DNA of 64,000 nucleotides from assembly GCA_013289585.1 (NCBI GenBank), contig JABCZR010000016.1:62001-126000 (forward strand), given 5' to 3'. The position numbers and the translations under genes were made by a program. The notes under the pieces are model-generated. The model saw only the letters and a list, made by a program, of their open reading frames with translations, did no database searches and was not told the DNA's origin. Within the stretch, counting starts at the first letter, position 1; the number at the start of each line of letters is the position of its first letter. Positions 608 through 7,092 of this stretch are shown piece by piece. The stretch is from Acidobacteriota bacterium. Lineage in GTDB: Bacteria > Acidobacteriota > Terriglobia > Acidiferrales > UBA7541.

Positions 608-665
608 AAGCAGGGAACAGGATAACCTATTGGCGGCCGAGGTAAGTCGGACTTAATTGGTCCGG

Positions 666-694
666 TTGACGCAAGTCCATTGCTGCGGTACACT
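666..694 (+). promoter_or_regulatory. Sigma70-like promoter of the iron-uptake operon
   Basis: TTGACG at 666-671 and TACACT at 689-694 are separated by exactly 17 bases, a near-consensus housekeeping promoter facing the FTR1 gene. Transcription would begin near 701. That rules out the upstream in-frame TTG at 694 as a start codon, because it lies inside the -10 element, and it supports GTG at 733. Confidence 0.6.
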
Positions 695-702
695 TGAATC
701 GT

Positions 703-723
703 AGTTGCAACTCAATTACAACT
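703..723. promoter_or_regulatory. Imperfect palindrome at the predicted start of the iron operon
   Basis: The left arm AGTTGCAA (703-710) and right arm TTACAACT (716-723) match as an inverted repeat at seven of eight positions around a five-base centre, CTCAA. The palindrome begins about two bases past the predicted transcription start and ends ten bases before the GTG codon, a usual place for a repressor operator. It does not look like a textbook Fur box or IdeR/DtxR box. Regulation by an iron-responsive repressor is therefore only inferred from the downstream genes. Confidence 0.4.
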
Positions 724-732
724 GGAGTTTCC

Positions 733-1995
733 GTGCTTTCGGCAATCCTTTTGGCACTGAGGGAAGGCGTTGAAGCCTCTCTCGTCGTCGGCATCATCCT
801 GGTCTACCTTTCCCGCACTGGCCGCGGCCACCTGGCGCGTTTCGCCTGGTACGGCGCGGCAGCGGCTGCGGCGCTCAGCCTGGGCGTGGCGGTGGCCTTG
901 GAGCGATTCCGCATCAGCGAGGACGGCTTTGAGGGCCTGATGCTCCTGGTCGCTTCGGTGTTCGTCATTACGATGATCGTATGGATGAACCGAGTTGCGC
1001 GCCACCTGAAAAAAGAGATCGAGGCCAAGGTTGAGGCCTACGCGGAGCGGGCAGGCAAGGCCGCGGGCTGGGGGATTTTCCTGTTTGTTTTCCTGATGGT
1101 GCTGCGCGAGGGCGCGGAGCTGGCGCTGATTTTGCGCGCCGTGGAACTGTCTAGCGAAGGATTGCAGACCTGGATCGGGACCATCGTCGGGATTGGCGCC
1201 GCCGTGGCCGTGGGCTTGTTTTTCTTCAAAGGGACTCTGCGCGTTCCGCTGCACCGCTTTTTTGCGGTGACCAGCGCCATCTTGATGCTCGTGGCGTTTC
1301 AGCTTGCGCTCACGGGTTTGCACGAGCTGAGCGAGGCGCGCTGGCTTCCGTCGAGCAAGACAGAGATGGCGTTGATTGGCCCCATCGTGAGGAATGAGCT
1401 GTTTTTCTTTGTCTTTATTTTCGGAGCGGCGGCGCTGCTGGTGCTGCGCGAATGGCAATCGGCGTCGCACGCCAAGGCCGCGCAAGACGCCGCCGGTGAA
1501 GCGGAGAAAAGATTGCTCGAATCGCAGAATCGCCGCCAGCGCCGCTGGATGATCGCCGCAGCAGGCGGATGCCTGGTGGTGATCCTGGTGCTGACCGCTG
1601 ATTTTATTTATGCGCGCGCGAACTCCGCGCCGCCCTCGGCGCGAACCGTTACCGCCGTGGGCAACGAGGTGCGCATCCCATTGAGTGAAGTGCAGGATGG
1701 AAGCCTGCATCTCTACAACATCACGGCCGGCCACCAGTCGCTGCGCTTCCTGATCATCAAAAAGCCGAATGGATATGGCACCGCCTTGGACGCTTGCCGG
1801 ATTTGTGGCGCCGAAGGGTATCGCCAGGACGGCCAGAACGTCATCTGCCGGCACTGCGGCTCAGCGATCTATGTGCCGTCGGTAGGCGATCAGGGCGGCT
1901 GCAATCCCATCGGCGTTCCGTCGCACACCGATGGCGGCGACCTTGTTCTGGATGTTTCCGCGCTCGTCGCAGCCACCAAGGAGATTCCCCAGTAG
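733..1995 (+). CDS. FTR1-family iron permease fused to DUF2318 Fe-S domain
   Basis: This integral membrane protein probably imports iron across the cytoplasmic membrane. The N-terminal part has about seven membrane segments and carries both FTR1 iron-binding motifs of the REXXE type, REGVE at residues 10-14 and REGAE at 125-129. After a charged linker and one more membrane segment near residues 270-290 comes a DUF2318-type domain with two CxxC pairs (the first at C355 and C358, then CRHC) and a further Cys in GGCNP. DUF2318 is usually a separate protein beside FTR1, so this is a fusion. The GTG start is chosen because GGAG lies seven bases upstream and the product then begins MLSAILLALREG, as FTR1 proteins usually do. 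It heads an operon with two permeases and an ATPase. Confidence 0.85.
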   Translation: MLSAILLALREGVEASLVVGIILVYLSRTGRGHLARFAWYGAAAAAALSLGVAVALERFRISEDGFEGLMLLVASVFVITMIVWMNRVARHLKKEIEAKVEAYAERAGKAAGWGIFLFVFLMVLREGAELALILRAVELSSEGLQTWIGTIVGIGAAVAVGLFFFKGTLRVPLHRFFAVTSAILMLVAFQLALTGLHELSEARWLPSSKTEMALIGPIVRNELFFFVFIFGAAALLVLREWQSASHAKAAQDAAGEAEKRLLESQNRRQRRWMIAAAGGCLVVILVLTADFIYARANSAPPSARTVTAVGNEVRIPLSEVQDGSLHLYNITAGHQSLRFLIIKKPNGYGTALDACRICGAEGYRQDGQNVICRHCGSAIYVPSVGDQGGCNPIGVPSHTDGGDLVLDVSALVAATKEIPQ

Positions 1996-2037: not shown

Positions 2038-3381
2038 ATGTTCCTACGACTCGTCGCCGATTCTTTTGGACGCCGTCCGCGCCACAAACTCCTCACCGGA
2101 GCGGCGCTGGCGCTCGGCATGGGCGTGGCTACGGCGGCACTCAGTGTTTCACTAGAGGTAGGTGACCGTCTGGCCAAGGAATTCCGCAGCTTGGGCGCAA
2201 ATCTTCTGGTCACGCCGCAAGCGGATTCGCTGCCGCTCGAAATTGGAGGTGTCGACTACCGTCCCGTGAACGCTGGCGCGTATCTTCCCGAAGCCGACCT
2301 TCCGAAATTGAAAACGATTTTCTGGCACAACAACATTGTGGGTTTTTCTCCAATCCTCCAAATCTCAGTCGATAGCTTTGTGGAGGCGGGCCCCCCGACA
2401 TATTCGCGATTTGTGCAACCGACGAAGGCGCTTCTGATTGGCACTTGGGCTGAGCACCAGATTCCACTCCCCGACGGGGGTACTTTTACTACCGGGATAA
2501 CGAGGGCGAATCCTTGGTGGCAAGTGCGGGGACGCTGGTATTCCGACGCCAGTCAAGAATGTGTGGTCGGGGCACAGCTTGCAGCGCGCCTCGGCGTTAC
2601 CCCCGGGCAGAGCCTCTTAATTGCTCAACCAACTGAATGGATCAAGTTCATTTCCGGCGGTGATTTGCCGGCCCCCGCAAGAAAGCTTCTTGTTACTGGT
2701 CTCTTGGAGACCGGAGGCCCCGAAGATGATGCAATTGTGGTACCTCTAGTAATTGCTCAAGAGATGGCGCACAAACCGAATGAGTACCGCAAGCTGTACG
2801 TCAGCGCATTGACGAAACCCGAAGACGATTTTGCGCGGCGCGATCCGAAGACGATGAAACCGGATGAGTTCGAGCGTTGGTCCTGCAGCCCCTACGTTTC
2901 TTCCATTGCGTATTCGATACAGCAGGTCTTGCCCGGAGCTGATGTGCGTGTGATTCGCCGCGTGGCGGAAGGCGAAGGCGCGATCCTTACGCGAGTCCGC
3001 ATGCTGCTGTGGCTGGTTACGGGAGCGGCGCTGCTAGCCGCGGCGCTGGCCGTGGGGGCTTCCGCCGCGGCTTCCGTGATCGAACGGCGTATGGAGATTG
3101 GCTTGATGAAAGCGCTCGGTGCCGGCTCCGGCACAGTCGGCTTCCTGCTCGCCGCGGAACAACTCTTGCTGGCGTTTGTCGGTGGCGGGATCGGCTATGC
3201 GCTGGGAATTATCTTGGCGCGCCTTCTCGGTGAAAGGATTTTTGGCGCGGCCCCCGAGCCTTCTCTCATGGTATTCCTTGTGATTGTCGCGCTTGCCATC
3301 GGCGTCACGCTTCTCGGCAGCGCCATCCCCCTCCGCCGCGCTTCGCGCTACGAGCCGGCACCCATCCTGCGAGGCGAATGA
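2038..3381 (+). CDS. ABC transporter permease, FtsX/MacB type (first of two)
   Basis: This is a 447-residue permease with one membrane segment near the N terminus (about residues 20-40), a large extracytoplasmic domain (about 45-315) and three C-terminal membrane segments. The order is the FtsX/MacB fold. The C-terminal region has the typical MEIGLMKALGA stretch after the second segment. In Campylobacter Cj1661/Cj1662 and in E. coli FetP-like systems such permeases work with an FTR1 permease in iron uptake. The next gene overlaps by four bases, which implies translational coupling. No clear Shine-Dalgarno precedes the ATG, so a later ATG (2119) cannot be excluded, but the earlier one keeps the full first membrane segment. 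Confidence 0.85.
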   Translation: MFLRLVADSFGRRPRHKLLTGAALALGMGVATAALSVSLEVGDRLAKEFRSLGANLLVTPQADSLPLEIGGVDYRPVNAGAYLPEADLPKLKTIFWHNNIVGFSPILQISVDSFVEAGPPTYSRFVQPTKALLIGTWAEHQIPLPDGGTFTTGITRANPWWQVRGRWYSDASQECVVGAQLAARLGVTPGQSLLIAQPTEWIKFISGGDLPAPARKLLVTGLLETGGPEDDAIVVPLVIAQEMAHKPNEYRKLYVSALTKPEDDFARRDPKTMKPDEFERWSCSPYVSSIAYSIQQVLPGADVRVIRRVAEGEGAILTRVRMLLWLVTGAALLAAALAVGASAAASVIERRMEIGLMKALGAGSGTVGFLLAAEQLLLAFVGGGIGYALGIILARLLGERIFGAAPEPSLMVFLVIVALAIGVTLLGSAIPLRRASRYEPAPILRGE

Positions 3382-4538
3382 TGGCCGCCCTCCATACAGC
3401 CAATCGAGCCATGTTCTGGCGCATCCTCCGGCGCCTCTTCGGAGCCAACCCCGGTCGCCTTTTCGTAATGCTGCTAGCCCTTGGCGCGGGCGCCGCCGTC
3501 ACTGCCGCGCTGCTCAATCTGCAAGTGGATGCCAAGCGCCGCCTTACCGCTGAATTCAGCATCTTCGGTCCCAACGGCTTGATTCTTCCCCGAGGCGATG
3601 CCGCAACTTTTACCGAGGTTACCTTCGATCATTTAACTAAAAGCGGCATGCTGCCCAATGCGCAGGCCAATCTTTCCTTGATTTGCAGCATTTCCTCGCA
3701 GTCGACCGGTCAAAGGCCAGTGCGTGCGGTCGTAACAGGAACGCGCGCTCTCGACCCGATAGACGCACCGAAAAGGGGAACTGCGCCTTCCAGCGAATCA
3801 GAGCCATACGACAGCCGGCAGATCTGCTTCGCGGGTGGCCGACTAGCTTTAAAAATGAACGTCAAGGTTGGTGACAACATAGTGCTACGAGCTGAAGACC
3901 ACGAGGAACCTTGCATCATTAAGTTCATTTGGTCCCGCGGCGATGCAGGCGACGATCAAATTACGTCTTCTCTCGGGGTTGCTCAGCGGCTGGCAGGCAT
4001 GCCGGGCCGGGTAAGCATCATTCAACTTGACTTGAGAGGCAAACCAGCGGAACAAGATGCGTATTTCGCGAGCCTTCAACACGGTTTCCCAGATTTGGAG
4101 GTCCGTCCGCTTCGCGAATTCACCGAAGCTCAAGCCAAGATTTACGATCGAATCAGCGGATTACTTACCATGACGGTCGGAATTGTCCTGTTGCTGACCG
4201 CCCTGTGCGTCATGGCGGCGATGACCAACGTGGCGATGGAGCGCAAGATGGACGTTGGCTTGATGAAAGCCATTGGTGGCTCGATGCGGCGCGTGCTGCG
4301 CCTTTTCCTTGCTGAGGCGGCACTGCTCGGCCTCGCGGGCGGCATGATTGGCGCCGCGCTTGGCATTTTTCTATCCATCGGTTTAGGCAAAGCCGTCTTT
4401 GGCGTGGCGGCGCGGCCGCGGCTGATTGTGTATCCTGTAGCAGTCGCGCTAACGGTCATCGTCGCGATTCTTAGTGCTTTTCCGCTGCGGCGTCTGGCAA
4501 GCATCCGTCCCGCAGCGGTTTTTCGAGGTGAAGCGTGA
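3378..4538 (+). CDS. ABC transporter permease, FtsX/MacB type (second of two)
   Basis: This 386-residue protein has the same architecture as its upstream neighbour: an N-terminal membrane segment (about residues 28-48), a periplasmic domain and three C-terminal segments, with MDVGLMKAIGGSMRRVL matching the neighbour's MEIGLMKALGA. The pair probably forms a heterodimeric permease. Its ATG overlaps the previous stop by four bases, and its own last four bases overlap the start of the ATPase gene, so the three genes are tightly coupled. What the permeases move is not evident. In related iron systems they are required together with FTR1 and P19. Confidence 0.85.
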   Translation: MMAALHTANRAMFWRILRRLFGANPGRLFVMLLALGAGAAVTAALLNLQVDAKRRLTAEFSIFGPNGLILPRGDAATFTEVTFDHLTKSGMLPNAQANLSLICSISSQSTGQRPVRAVVTGTRALDPIDAPKRGTAPSSESEPYDSRQICFAGGRLALKMNVKVGDNIVLRAEDHEEPCIIKFIWSRGDAGDDQITSSLGVAQRLAGMPGRVSIIQLDLRGKPAEQDAYFASLQHGFPDLEVRPLREFTEAQAKIYDRISGLLTMTVGIVLLLTALCVMAAMTNVAMERKMDVGLMKAIGGSMRRVLRLFLAEAALLGLAGGMIGAALGIFLSIGLGKAVFGVAARPRLIVYPVAVALTVIVAILSAFPLRRLASIRPAAVFRGEA

Positions 4539-5740
4539 GTTCGGTCGTCCAAGTGCCACCGCTGACCGCGGCGACGCAAGTGGTCATCGAGAATTTGATC
4601 AAGCAATACGGCGCTCTGCGTGCGCTCGGCGGCGTCAGCTTTGGCGTGAACACCGGCGAGTGGGTCGCGCTCATGGGACCATCCGGCTCGGGAAAAACCA
4701 CTCTCATCAATATTCTCGGCGGCTTGGACACGCTAACCACTGGTCGCGTGGTCGTCGATGGCACCGACCTTTCAAAACTTCGTGAAAACGAGCTTGCGTG
4801 TTACCGCGCCGAAAAAGTCGGTTTTGTCTTCCAGCAATTTCATCTCGTGCCGTATCTCACCGCTGTCGAAAACGTGATGCTTGCTCAGTATTTCCACAGT
4901 GTCACGGATCAAAAGCAGGCTGAAGAGGCACTAAAACGCGTCGGCCTCGGCGACCGCCTGACGCATCTTCCCGCGCAACTCTCTGGCGGCGAGCAGCAAC
5001 GCGTCGCTATCGCGCGAGCGCTGATCAACGAGCCAAAGCTGATCCTGGCCGATGAACCTACGGGAAATCTTGACGAGGCCAATGAAGAAATTGTGCTCGA
5101 GATTTTTCGCGAACTGCACAACGCTGGTCACACCATCCTCATGGTCACGCACGATCCGGACATCGCGCGCCAGGCCGACCGACGCATCGAGCTCGCTCAT
5201 GGCCACTTGCATTTCGATACCGCGCAACACGGCCCGGGCCATCCCCTCGCTTGTCCTCTGGCTGATACCGCTGACTGCTGCACTCCGATTTCCACCGATG
5301 ACGAAATTCGCTTCGATCATTTGCTCGAACAGATCTGGATTTTCGGCGAGGAAGGGAAGCCTGCGCACGCGGCGAGTCTCCATGCCACCGGTTCGGCCGG
5401 GAAACTTCCGCTAGTGAACGATGAACCTGCCGCGCGGGTTCTTTCGCGCATGTCCGATCTCCGCCTCGTGGAAATGCAAAATGGAGAAGTGCAGCTCACG
5501 TCCGTGGGCAGCCAGCGCGCACGAAACGTCGTCCGCCGTCATCGCCTGGCCGAGCGCCTTTTCAAAGACACTTTTTCCATCGACGACACCGAAGCGCATA
5601 CGCAAGCCTGCAAATTCGAACACATCATCAGCCCCGAGCTCGACCAGCGCATTTGCACTTTTCTTGGCCATCCGAAAACCTGCCCGCACGGCAATCCCAT
5701 TCCGCCCGGCGATTGCTGCGATAGCAAGCCCAAGGTCTAA
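4535..5740 (+). CDS. ABC ATPase fused to DtxR-type metal-sensing module
   Basis: Residues 1-230 form a MacB/LolD-class ATPase with Walker [10 protein letters not shown], signature LSGGEQQR and Walker [14 protein letters not shown] Cys/His-rich linker ([17 protein letters not shown]) leads to about 145 residues that read as a DtxR-family regulator without the SH3 domain: a winged-helix-like part (about 257-330), then the metal-binding and dimerisation helices with HRLAERLF and [15 protein letters not shown]336, E340, H355, C359, E362 and H363 have exactly the spacing of the metal ligands H79, E83, H98, C102, E105 and H106 of Corynebacterium DtxR. By eye, H262 falls where DtxR Met10 lies. The helix-turn-helix looks degenerate. 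Inference: the ATPase senses iron directly, or the protein doubles as a repressor. Confidence 0.85.
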
Positions 5741-5755
5741 GCTCACCCCGGAACT

Positions 5756-6148
5756 ATGCCGACTCCTCTCGACCCGCGAAAAAAGCCCACGAGCATCAAG
5801 ATTCACATTTCCAGCGGCGCGGGTGTGGACATCATCTGGGCCGATGGCCACGCCAGCCATTACGATTTTGCATATCTGCGTGAAGAGTGCCCTTGCGCGA
5901 CCTGCAATGACGCGCGCGAGAAGAAGGCCTCTCTTGGAGCGTCCGCTCCAGCATTGCTCTCCTCTCCCGCGCTCCCTATGTTCAAGCCCAAGCCCCGCGC
6001 TCAATCCGCCACGCAGATCGGCAGCTACGCCATCCAACTCAACTTCTCCGACGGCCACTCCACCGGTATCTATAGTTACGATTATTTCCGCATCATCTGC
6101 CCCTGCGCTGATTGTGCCAAAGCCTTCCGCACCGTCGCAGCCGGCTGA
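5756..6148 (+). CDS. DUF971 (GBBH-like N-terminal domain) protein
   Basis: This 130-residue protein carries the DUF971 pattern twice. A first half has IIWADGHASHYDFAYLRE followed by CPCATC (about residues 25-48), and a second half has LNFSDGHSTGIYSYDYFR followed by CPCADC (about 88-118). The two CPCxxC clusters suggest a bound metal or Fe-S centre. Such domains occur in gamma-butyrobetaine hydroxylases and as small proteins near Fe-S assembly genes. It lies 15 bases after the ATPase-DtxR gene, so it is probably the last gene of the iron operon. Its role there is unknown. Confidence 0.7.
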   Translation: MPTPLDPRKKPTSIKIHISSGAGVDIIWADGHASHYDFAYLREECPCATCNDAREKKASLGASAPALLSSPALPMFKPKPRAQSATQIGSYAIQLNFSDGHSTGIYSYDYFRIICPCADCAKAFRTVAAG

Positions 6149-6231
6149 AGCCTCCTGCTGTTGTTTCTTGCCTCCTTTCTGTGGAATCCTCTGACCAGAT
6201 TCAAGTGATCCTTTCCCCAACGAGGTGTCTC

Positions 6232-7092
6232 ATGGCCTGCGACCCCCAGGAATTGAAGCACGTTCCGCTTTTTGCGCTGCTCGATGATGACGAAGCTGCC
6301 GTTCTCGCCAGTCAAGTCGAAGTGAGGCACTTTGCTCCGCGCCAGCGCATCTACAAAATCGGCGATCCTGCCGGTCAAGCTTACGTGATGATGTCAGGCC
6401 GAGTCCGCGTCTCGACCGTCGACGAAGATCATCAAGAGGTTGTCGTCGACGAGCCCGGTCACGGCGAATTTTTCGGTTTCGCCTCCATGCTCGAACGCAC
6501 CCCTCATCAAACCGACGCGACGGCCCTTGAGGAAACCTCCTGTCTCGAAGTTTCCCGCGACGACATCTCCGTTCTTCTGCAGCGCAAGCCCCACGCCGGC
6601 ATGGACATGCTCACCGTCCTCGGTAAGCAGTTTCACGCCTCTCAGCAGCTTGTGCGCCTCCGGGCCAATCGCCATCCCAACGAAATCATCGAAAAGGAAG
6701 CCACTTTTGGCGAACGCATCGCGGATGTGGTCAGCAAATTCGGGGGCTCGTGGACTTTTATCATTTCCTTCGCAATCGTTGGCAGCATCTATACGGCGAT
6801 AAACATAACTTTGGGGAAATCCGCCTGGGATCCCTATCCCTTCATTCTCCTGAATCTATTTCTTTCCTTGCTGGCCGCCATCCAAGCCCCGGTGATCATG
6901 ATGAGCCAGAATCGTCTGGACACGAAAGATCGCCTCCGCGGTGAACTCGATTTTGACGTCAACCGCCGCGCCGCCTCGGACATTCAAGGTTTGGCCAGAA
7001 AGCTGAATCTCCTGGGTGAGAAGATGGGCGACATTGAGGACCTGCTTCGCCAGAAACACATTACCCCTGCTGCTCCCGGTCCTTCGCACTAG
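6232..7092 (+). CDS. Cyclic-nucleotide-binding domain plus DUF1003 membrane protein
   Basis: The N-terminal half (residues 5-130) is a Crp-type cNMP-binding beta-roll, with the stretch IYKIGDPAGQAYVMMSGRV and the buried loop GEFFGFASML. No DNA-binding domain follows. Residues 150-250 match DUF1003, with two membrane segments (FIISFAIVGSIYTAINI and PFILLNLFLSLLAAIQAPVIMM) and the conserved FGGSW and NR motifs. The C terminus is a probable coiled coil. The ATG at 6232 is chosen because GAGGT lies six bases upstream and the longer frame would overlap the DUF971 gene. The function is unknown. A membrane protein gated or regulated by a nucleotide is plausible. Confidence 0.75.
   Translation: MACDPQELKHVPLFALLDDDEAAVLASQVEVRHFAPRQRIYKIGDPAGQAYVMMSGRVRVSTVDEDHQEVVVDEPGHGEFFGFASMLERTPHQTDATALEETSCLEVSRDDISVLLQRKPHAGMDMLTVLGKQFHASQQLVRLRANRHPNEIIEKEATFGERIADVVSKFGGSWTFIISFAIVGSIYTAINITLGKSAWDPYPFILLNLFLSLLAAIQAPVIMMSQNRLDTKDRLRGELDFDVNRRAASDIQGLARKLNLLGEKMGDIEDLLRQKHITPAAPGPSH

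Follow-up and report, generated by a model that had tools for sequence, protein, structure and literature searches.

A FetD-like transporter ATPase with a C-terminal DtxR-derived metal module in Acidobacteriota, a candidate iron sensor outside transcription

Introduction

Descriptions of bacterial iron control mostly concern transcription, through Fur and DtxR. A 64,000-nucleotide stretch of DNA from an Acidobacteriota bacterium (assembly GCA_013289585.1, contig JABCZR010000016.1, positions 62,001 to 126,000 of the forward strand), analysed here as a whole and referred to as the window, carries a single reading frame in which an ATP-binding cassette (ABC) transporter ATPase is followed by a metal-binding module of the DtxR family, and raises the question of what part of an iron repressor does behind the motor of a transporter. 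The host genome is 97%-complete and 4.7 Mb in size. Our analysis leans towards the fusion being the FetD-like ATPase of a Fet-type iron-uptake ABC transporter, whose C-terminal DtxR-derived metal sensor would no longer be a transcription factor and would inhibit the ATPase by feedback.

An ATPase and a DtxR-type metal module in one reading frame

The fused gene and its parts are as follows.
4535..5740, + strand: fused gene, FetD-like ABC ATPase plus DtxR-derived metal module (401 amino acids, one open frame, GTG start)
4574..5218, + strand: ABC ATPase domain of the MacB/YbbA/LolD type, residues 14-228, with GPSGSGKT (Walker A), the LSGGE signature and ADEPTGNLD
5219..5308, + strand: linker, residues 229-258, of differing length in alignments of relatives
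5309..5359, + strand: first helix of the DtxR N-terminal domain, residues 259-275, with candidate metal ligands H262 and E265
5360..5497, + strand: degenerate helix-turn-helix and wing, residues 276-321
5498..5680, + strand: DtxR metal-binding and dimerisation domain, residues 322-382, with H336, E340, H355, C359, E362 and H363
5681..5719, + strand: C-terminal C-P-H-G...C-C motif (C383, H385, C394, C395), also present in a feoB-linked sister family

A first-pass annotation, made from the letters alone, had read this frame as an ATPase followed by a DtxR-type module, and Pfam bears it out: ABC_tran matches residues 32-176 (E 1.2e-36) and Fe_dep_repr_C (PF02742) residues 322-390 (E 4.3e-28). At E<=1 the C-terminal part otherwise gives a weak AAA_assoc_C match alone (0.17, residues 305-335), and PF01325, the model of the DtxR N-terminal DNA-binding domain, does not match the window protein at this threshold. 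The NCBIfam models nearest to the ATPase half are LolD and MacB, with all scores under the model cut-offs. A structure search with the model of the whole fusion returned MacB, MJ0796, YbbAP and LolCDE with Z 27-32 (about 220 residues for the top match); its 50 best rows hold ATPase relatives only and carry no information on the DtxR part. The metal half matches DtxR-family repressors in a sequence search of the PDB, with E values down to 2.2e-18, and its Fe_dep_repr_C part aligns with IdeR without gaps across the ligand stretch. The AlphaFold model of the fusion has a mean pLDDT of 81.9. Linker residues 236-241 and 243-251 fall below pLDDT 50, as do residues 287-295, and a first helix (254-272), a helix at 299-308 and a wing are predicted, so that in the model the shell of the DtxR N-terminal fold persists.

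Conservation of the metal site

The six ligands named in the first-pass annotation, H336, E340, H355, C359, E362 and H363, were verified residue by residue, as was their DtxR spacing (steps +4, +15, +4, +3 and +1); their equally spaced counterparts in DtxR are H79, E83, H98, C102, E105 and H106. Among the 84 distinct fusions described below, E340 and E362 are kept in all and C359 and H363 in 83 each. At position 262 of the first helix 53 fusions have H, 28 have E, 2 have D and 1 has N, and E265 is kept in 78. The former aligns with DtxR M10, as judged by aligning L123, a sister protein, with IdeR, and the latter occupies the position of MntR E11. Since C359, E362, H363, E265 and position 262 are conserved while H336 and H355 vary, the primary site, including its two first-helix residues, is better kept than the ancillary site.

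Beyond the original six, the alignments point to position 262 and E265 in the first helix and C383, H385, C394 and C395 in the tail as further conserved candidate ligands. The tail motif is near-invariant in the fusions (C383 84, H385 84, C394 83 and C395 83 of 84) and in the sister proteins (33, 33, 34 and 34 of 35). In 25 other DtxR-family members C383 occurs 3 times and C394 and C395 once each, but H385 occurs in 24. It is therefore the cysteines, and not the histidine, that set the fusions and sister proteins apart. In the alignments shown, neither the first Cys nor the His of the motif is present in the PDB relatives of this module. The CPHG...CC motif could form a second metal or cluster site.

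Divergence of the DNA-reading part

The helix-turn-helix had been described as eroded, and both profile matches and substitution patterns agree. At E<=0.01 PF01325 is matched by 0/84 fusions and 2/35 free-standing relatives of the sister family, against 23/25 other DtxR-family proteins of the phylum. The two positive sister-group proteins are L123, a weak match, and L157 (49.5 bits), an ordinary member of the family whose removal leaves 1/34; the two negative proteins of the other group are L191:3702 and L202:4848.

We compared ratios of nonsynonymous to synonymous substitution (dN/dS) along 32 fusions of the window's genus and family, using pairwise Nei-Gojobori estimates with Jukes-Cantor correction; as the 496 pairs are non-independent and synonymous sites are near saturation (proportion of synonymous differences, pS, 0.55-0.70), the figures are to be read as ranks. 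The first helix is the most constrained (0.038), followed by the tail motif (0.051), the metal domain (0.079), the ATPase (0.092), the linker (0.148) and the wing (residues 307-321, 0.169), and the recognition region (residues 276-306) evolves fastest at 0.335. In a control of eight other family members of one genus, with regions delimited by eye, the values were 0.147 for the first helix, 0.159 for the recognition region, 0.109 for the wing and 0.057 for the metal domain. Control and fusions are alike in metal domain identity (84% vs 86%) and differ in that of the recognition region (71% vs 47%). These patterns indicate that selection is tight on the metal site of the fusions and relaxed on their recognition region.

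The fusion thus shares with DtxR, IdeR and MntR the metal-binding and dimerisation domain, the ligand spacing and a Cys at the C102 position. It differs from them in having no recognisable DNA-binding domain and no FeoA/SH3 domain, in sitting behind an ABC ATPase and in its extra cysteines C383, C394 and C395.

A Fet-like operon and its distribution

The fused gene is the last of a four-gene operon, in the order FTR1-FtrD, FtsX permease, FtsX permease and ATPase-DtxR. The three upstream genes are the following.
733..1995, + strand: FTR1/EfeU-type iron permease fused to FtrD (DUF2318); Pfam FTR1 5e-38, FtrD-like 1.4e-23
2038..3381, + strand: FtsX/MacB-type permease, FetB-like; FtsX 7e-16, MacB_PCD 1.3e-7
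3378..4538, + strand: second FtsX-type permease, FetC-like; FtsX 1.1e-10, with a 4-base overlap with the start of the fused gene

For the first gene, GTG 733, which follows GGAG, looks the likelier start than the mechanically assigned TTG 694. The operon resembles fetMP-fetABCDEF of Campylobacter jejuni (PMC10783030) in clustering an FTR1-type permease, FtrD/DUF2318, two related ABC permeases and one ABC ATPase. It differs in having FTR1 and FtrD as one protein, in lacking FetP/P19 (PF10634, unmatched in the 97%-complete own genome at E<=0.001) and in the DtxR-derived module of its ATPase, none being mentioned for FetD in the available text of that source. Deletions of fetA, fetB, fetC and fetD impair low-iron growth of C. 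jejuni, the job of the ABC part being left unexplained in the same text (PMC10783030). No thioredoxin family, as expected of FetE/FetF, was found by Pfam among the seven window proteins scanned; the genome was not searched for them.

The same domain pair, sought in other genomes, recurs in 84 distinct full or partial fusions, the window included. Nearly all are from Acidobacteriota and most lie in the same operon, and ABC_tran and Fe_dep_repr_C both match in 84/84. The count pools named and unnamed relatives, with identical or contained sequences counted once and a few cut by contig ends (among them L049 and L072). Five loci were left out of the three groups compared here: L026 for its cut frame, L176 for a low score, and L117, L119 and L160 because of a contig edge or of split or odd frames. 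The scan of named genomes gave 385 relatives of the DtxR part, and among the best 80 of these 75 are single-frame fusions. FTR1, FtrD and both permeases adjoin 68 of the 75; L047, L061 and L081 have both permeases only, and at L049, L072, L082 and L102 none was detected, the first three of these loci beginning at or near a contig end. Labels other than Acidobacteriota within the best 80 are borne by the fusions L058 (Betaproteobacteria) and L102 (Xanthobacteraceae) and by the other loci L095 (archaeon), L105 (bacterium), L108 (Nitrospirae) and L119 (Anaeromyxobacteraceae); 79 of the 80 are metagenome-assembled genomes, whose taxon labels may be wrong. An evenly drawn sample of 396 genomes from the phylum contains at least 22 in which a frame of at least 354 amino acids with a DtxR match lies no more than 4 kb from FtrD, same contig and same strand; the count was made by comparing two tables by eye, with the sequence read in six (L001, L135, L137, L149, L151 and L153). 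The length of the linker differs by lineage in the alignment of fusions. A quick 132-column tree has all fusions to one side of a single branch, as a possible single origin would have it, but this branch has a support of only 77.

Unfused relatives also exist. Twenty FtrD loci were fetched. Six of them (L163-L167 and L174) carry the same operon, its ATPase being unfused, eight have an unfused ATPase with one permease detected and one has a decayed module (L176), and five are without an ATPase found, in three of them due to a contig end. In one of the unfused FetD relatives (L174:122-1135, - strand) a different Cys/His-rich tail (CPTD...CPNCGMNLFKKHEH) replaces the DtxR module and is perhaps another metal-sensing add-on.

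A feoB-linked sister family

The closest free-standing relatives of the module are DtxR-FeoA proteins, with PF02742 and FeoA both present in 35/35. A feoB-like gene, identified by similarity to one FeoB, lies directly upstream of 29 of the 35 (same strand, gap of -150 to 400 bases), and five of these feoB-like frames were confirmed by Pfam. Six fall outside the rule (L142, L147, L108, L132, L134 and L157), L142 by a same-strand overlap just above the 150-base limit and L147 at a contig edge. By the same rule none of the 25 other members lies directly downstream of feoB and three lie directly upstream; the overlap of L191 and L200 with a FeoB-like frame exceeds the limit. Both groups are samples drawn from among the matches listed. 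In the 132-column tree the fusions and sister proteins (84 + 34 rows) form one group apart from the other members, with a Shimodaira-Hasegawa-like approximate likelihood ratio test (SH-aLRT) value of 98. The model of the sister protein L123 (pLDDT 92.4) has a complete DtxR-like fold plus FeoA, matching DtxR with Z 18.3 (132 residues, 1.9 Å) and FeoA with Z 13.9, and suggests that the winged-helix fold itself persists in the sister branch.

It is plausible, if somewhat doubtful, that this DtxR branch left transcription and became a portable sensor of Fe(II), or perhaps of an iron-sulfur (Fe-S) cluster, fused to the Fet ATPase in one case and attached to FeoB through FeoA in the other, which would place the same direct post-translational feedback on two unrelated transporters. 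PgMntR of Porphyromonas gingivalis resembles the sister family in joining DtxR-family and FeoA domains and in being encoded with a FeoB-type transporter (PMC4805248); according to the available text it binds DNA and has two FeoA domains, whereas the sister proteins mostly lack a DNA-binding profile and follow feoB. FeoA proteins fused to DtxR-type domains were excluded from the data set of one study, as far as its accessible text goes (PMC8980893), and the word DtxR was not found in the accessible text of a paper on Feo evolution.

Two further arrangements were seen near feoB. L191:3702-4775 (-), L200:3620-4732 (-) and L202:4848-5888 (+) are DtxR-family proteins with a hydrophobic N-terminal stretch and twin FeoA stretches, with a weak PF01325 match (L200, 17 bits) or none, and each either overlaps a FeoB-like frame or lies just upstream of one; they are possibly membrane-anchored metal sensors of FeoB. 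At L095:3589-6648 (+), in an archaeal-labelled metagenome bin, feoB is flanked by two DtxR proteins, one short and with a good PF01325 match, the other of the DtxR-FeoA type and matching only marginally (E 0.057), presumably a repressor and a transporter partner side by side.

Proposed role of the module

Two readings had been offered for the fusion at first pass, a motor gated directly by Fe(II) and a combined ATPase and repressor. The conserved metal site, the lost and fast-evolving DNA-reading part, the iron operon and the sister family beside feoB favour the first; the PF01325 counts tell against the second. Beneath the FetB/FetC permeases the ATPase would be present twice, and through this pairing the two DtxR modules could dimerise. 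Cytoplasmic Fe(II) would fill a site to which the first helix contributes H/E262 and E265 and the dimerisation domain C359, E362 and H363, and the filled modules would lock the ATPase pair so that further uptake stops, much as in MetN and ModC with their own substrates. We propose that Fe(II) slows the Fet ATPase because a metal site that would bridge subdomains is combined with a dimerisation domain behind a paired ATPase, in a layout like that of MetN/ModC. The C-terminal domains of those ATPases bind the imported substrate and keep the transporter resting (PMC10710835, available text). The likeness lies in the domain order, a C-terminal domain on an uptake ATPase, and in the ligand-driven post-translational control proposed here; the fusion differs in its regulatory domain family (PF02742) and its MacB-type ATPase. 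That the module senses is likely, and inhibition rather than activation is a choice by analogy; the identity of the metal, the formation of a dimer and the effect on the ATPase with its sign are what we infer.

Several observations weigh against this feedback model. Two of the six ligand positions are variable among the 84 fusions, with H in 70 and R in 11 at position 336 and, at position 355, 34 H, 29 E and 12 D. One fusion (L038, 7594-8658, +) has lost C359 and H363, and the module of L176 (8213-9241, +) matches only the end of PF02742, below the cut-off, with metal ligands lost. The module also appears dispensable: in the quick ATPase tree the unfused FetD proteins L163-L167 nest within the fusions (SH-aLRT 80-91), a lineage in which it was probably lost. 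Nor is it always tied to the operon, as the L102 fusion (4747-6351, +) has no Fet gene across more than 4.7 kb upstream. The wing and the helix in the place of the recognition helix are still present in the AlphaFold model, which leaves nucleic-acid binding possible. Finally, feedback on uptake assumes that FetBCD drives iron import, and MacB-type transporters need not import anything.

L176 and L038 are natural tests of the need for metal binding. The ATPase half of L102 is more distant (51% identity), and its locus is either a case of the module reused on another ABC ATPase or a misassembled contig.

Should the module sense iron and act directly on the motor, it would parallel MetN/ModC feedback, with iron as the signal. 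It would give a handle on the role of the FetBCD ABC transporter and name a candidate partner protein of FeoB, and a metalloregulator with its sensing half kept and its DNA-reading half decayed would allow a clean test of how metal occupancy is transmitted. A transporter motor with a built-in regulatory domain is a known type; the making of that domain from an iron repressor appears to be new. In literature outside subscription journals and preprints, no title or abstract was found on a DtxR-fused ABC ATPase or on feoB-linked DtxR-FeoA proteins without a DNA-binding domain.

Feedback inhibition has to be set against other roles for the same module. Metal or Fe-S occupancy might hold the ATPase together or shield it from proteolysis, in the way FeoC protects FeoB, with a sign that is positive or redox-dependent. 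FeoC has an Fe-S cluster and guards FeoB (PMC10710835, available text), and the near-invariant C383 and C394-C395 of both groups could hold a cluster. A stabilising or redox role stays alive because the sister proteins occupy a feoC-like position directly downstream of feoB, and their predicted winged helix and Cys motif are further points of likeness to the FeoC/FeoB partners (available texts of PMC8749426 and PMC10710835). However, these proteins carry a DtxR metal domain and a FeoA domain, the FeoC profile PF09012 is matched by none of the 84 fusions and 35 sister proteins (E<=0.01), and the DtxR-type Fe(II) site is conserved equally with the Cys motif; we regard such a role as unlikely. 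The module might also be a metal delivery site or a glue for the ATPase dimer that does no sensing. Its conserved metal-type residues, the known dimerisation domain and the existence of unfused ATPases would fit, but a purely structural part or iron acceptor gives a less clear reason for the strong selection on first-helix residues that would bridge subdomains, and we hold this to be rather unlikely.

The operon promoter, the own genome and a possible repressor function

Upstream of the operon we noted the following elements.
648..664, + strand: palindrome CGGAC-N7-GTCCG, a possible operator, 5' of the -35 box
666..694, + strand: probable sigma-70 promoter of the operon, TTGACG, 17 bases, TACACT, read from the sequence
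704..722, + strand: inverted repeat GTTGCAA...ACAAC, a possible operator, 3' of the -10 box

Of the 28 loci used for comparison 25 yielded an upstream region, and patterns were counted out of 26. TTGAC-N15..21-TAnAnT occurs in 26/26, GGAC-N6..8-GTCC in 18/26 and TTGCAA-N5..9-ACAA in 15/26 (20/26 with a looser pattern). The repeat at 704-722 may be Fur-like.

The two palindromes bear on another alternative, in which the fusion is an ATPase and a metal-dependent DNA-binding repressor at once, perhaps coupling transcription of the operon to occupancy of the transporter. Descent from the DtxR family and the wing and helix 299-308 that remain in the model are compatible with it, as is the recurrence of both palindromes among relatives. 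It is nevertheless very unlikely in our judgement: PF01325 is found in none of the fusions, the recognition region is their fastest-evolving part, unlike in other family members, and the classic 19-bp DtxR box does not occur in the window with up to 3 mismatches. The own genome moreover encodes a separate DtxR-family protein with PF01325 and one Fur-family match above the cut-off, so that transcription could be managed without the fusion. That two genes were joined by a sequencing or assembly error, or a stop codon lost, as the first-pass annotation had envisaged, can practically be dismissed because there are 84 distinct fusions, with lineage-varying linkers and purifying selection on both halves, even though module-less homologues exist and the odd locus L102 might be a misassembly; nothing pointing to such an error was found for the window.

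FeoB is probably absent from the own genome. Its FeoB_N matches number seven, the best of 71 bits, in frames of 360-969 amino acids, compared with 170-185 bits for five confirmed FeoBs, and from their frame sizes they are probably other GTPases such as Der, Obg and IF2. Since neither FetP nor a likely FeoB was found, the Fet-like operon may encode a main iron importer here.

The best other matches to the repeat at 704-722 form a site pair at G000:C1:472356-472422, at the start of an outer-membrane-protein-like frame that is followed by a cytochrome c-like frame (names from reading of the sequence); the fet promoter and this site pair maybe belong to one iron regulon. Downstream of the fused gene lie a small GBBH-like_N protein (5756-6148) and a protein with cNMP-binding and DUF1003 domains (6112-7092).

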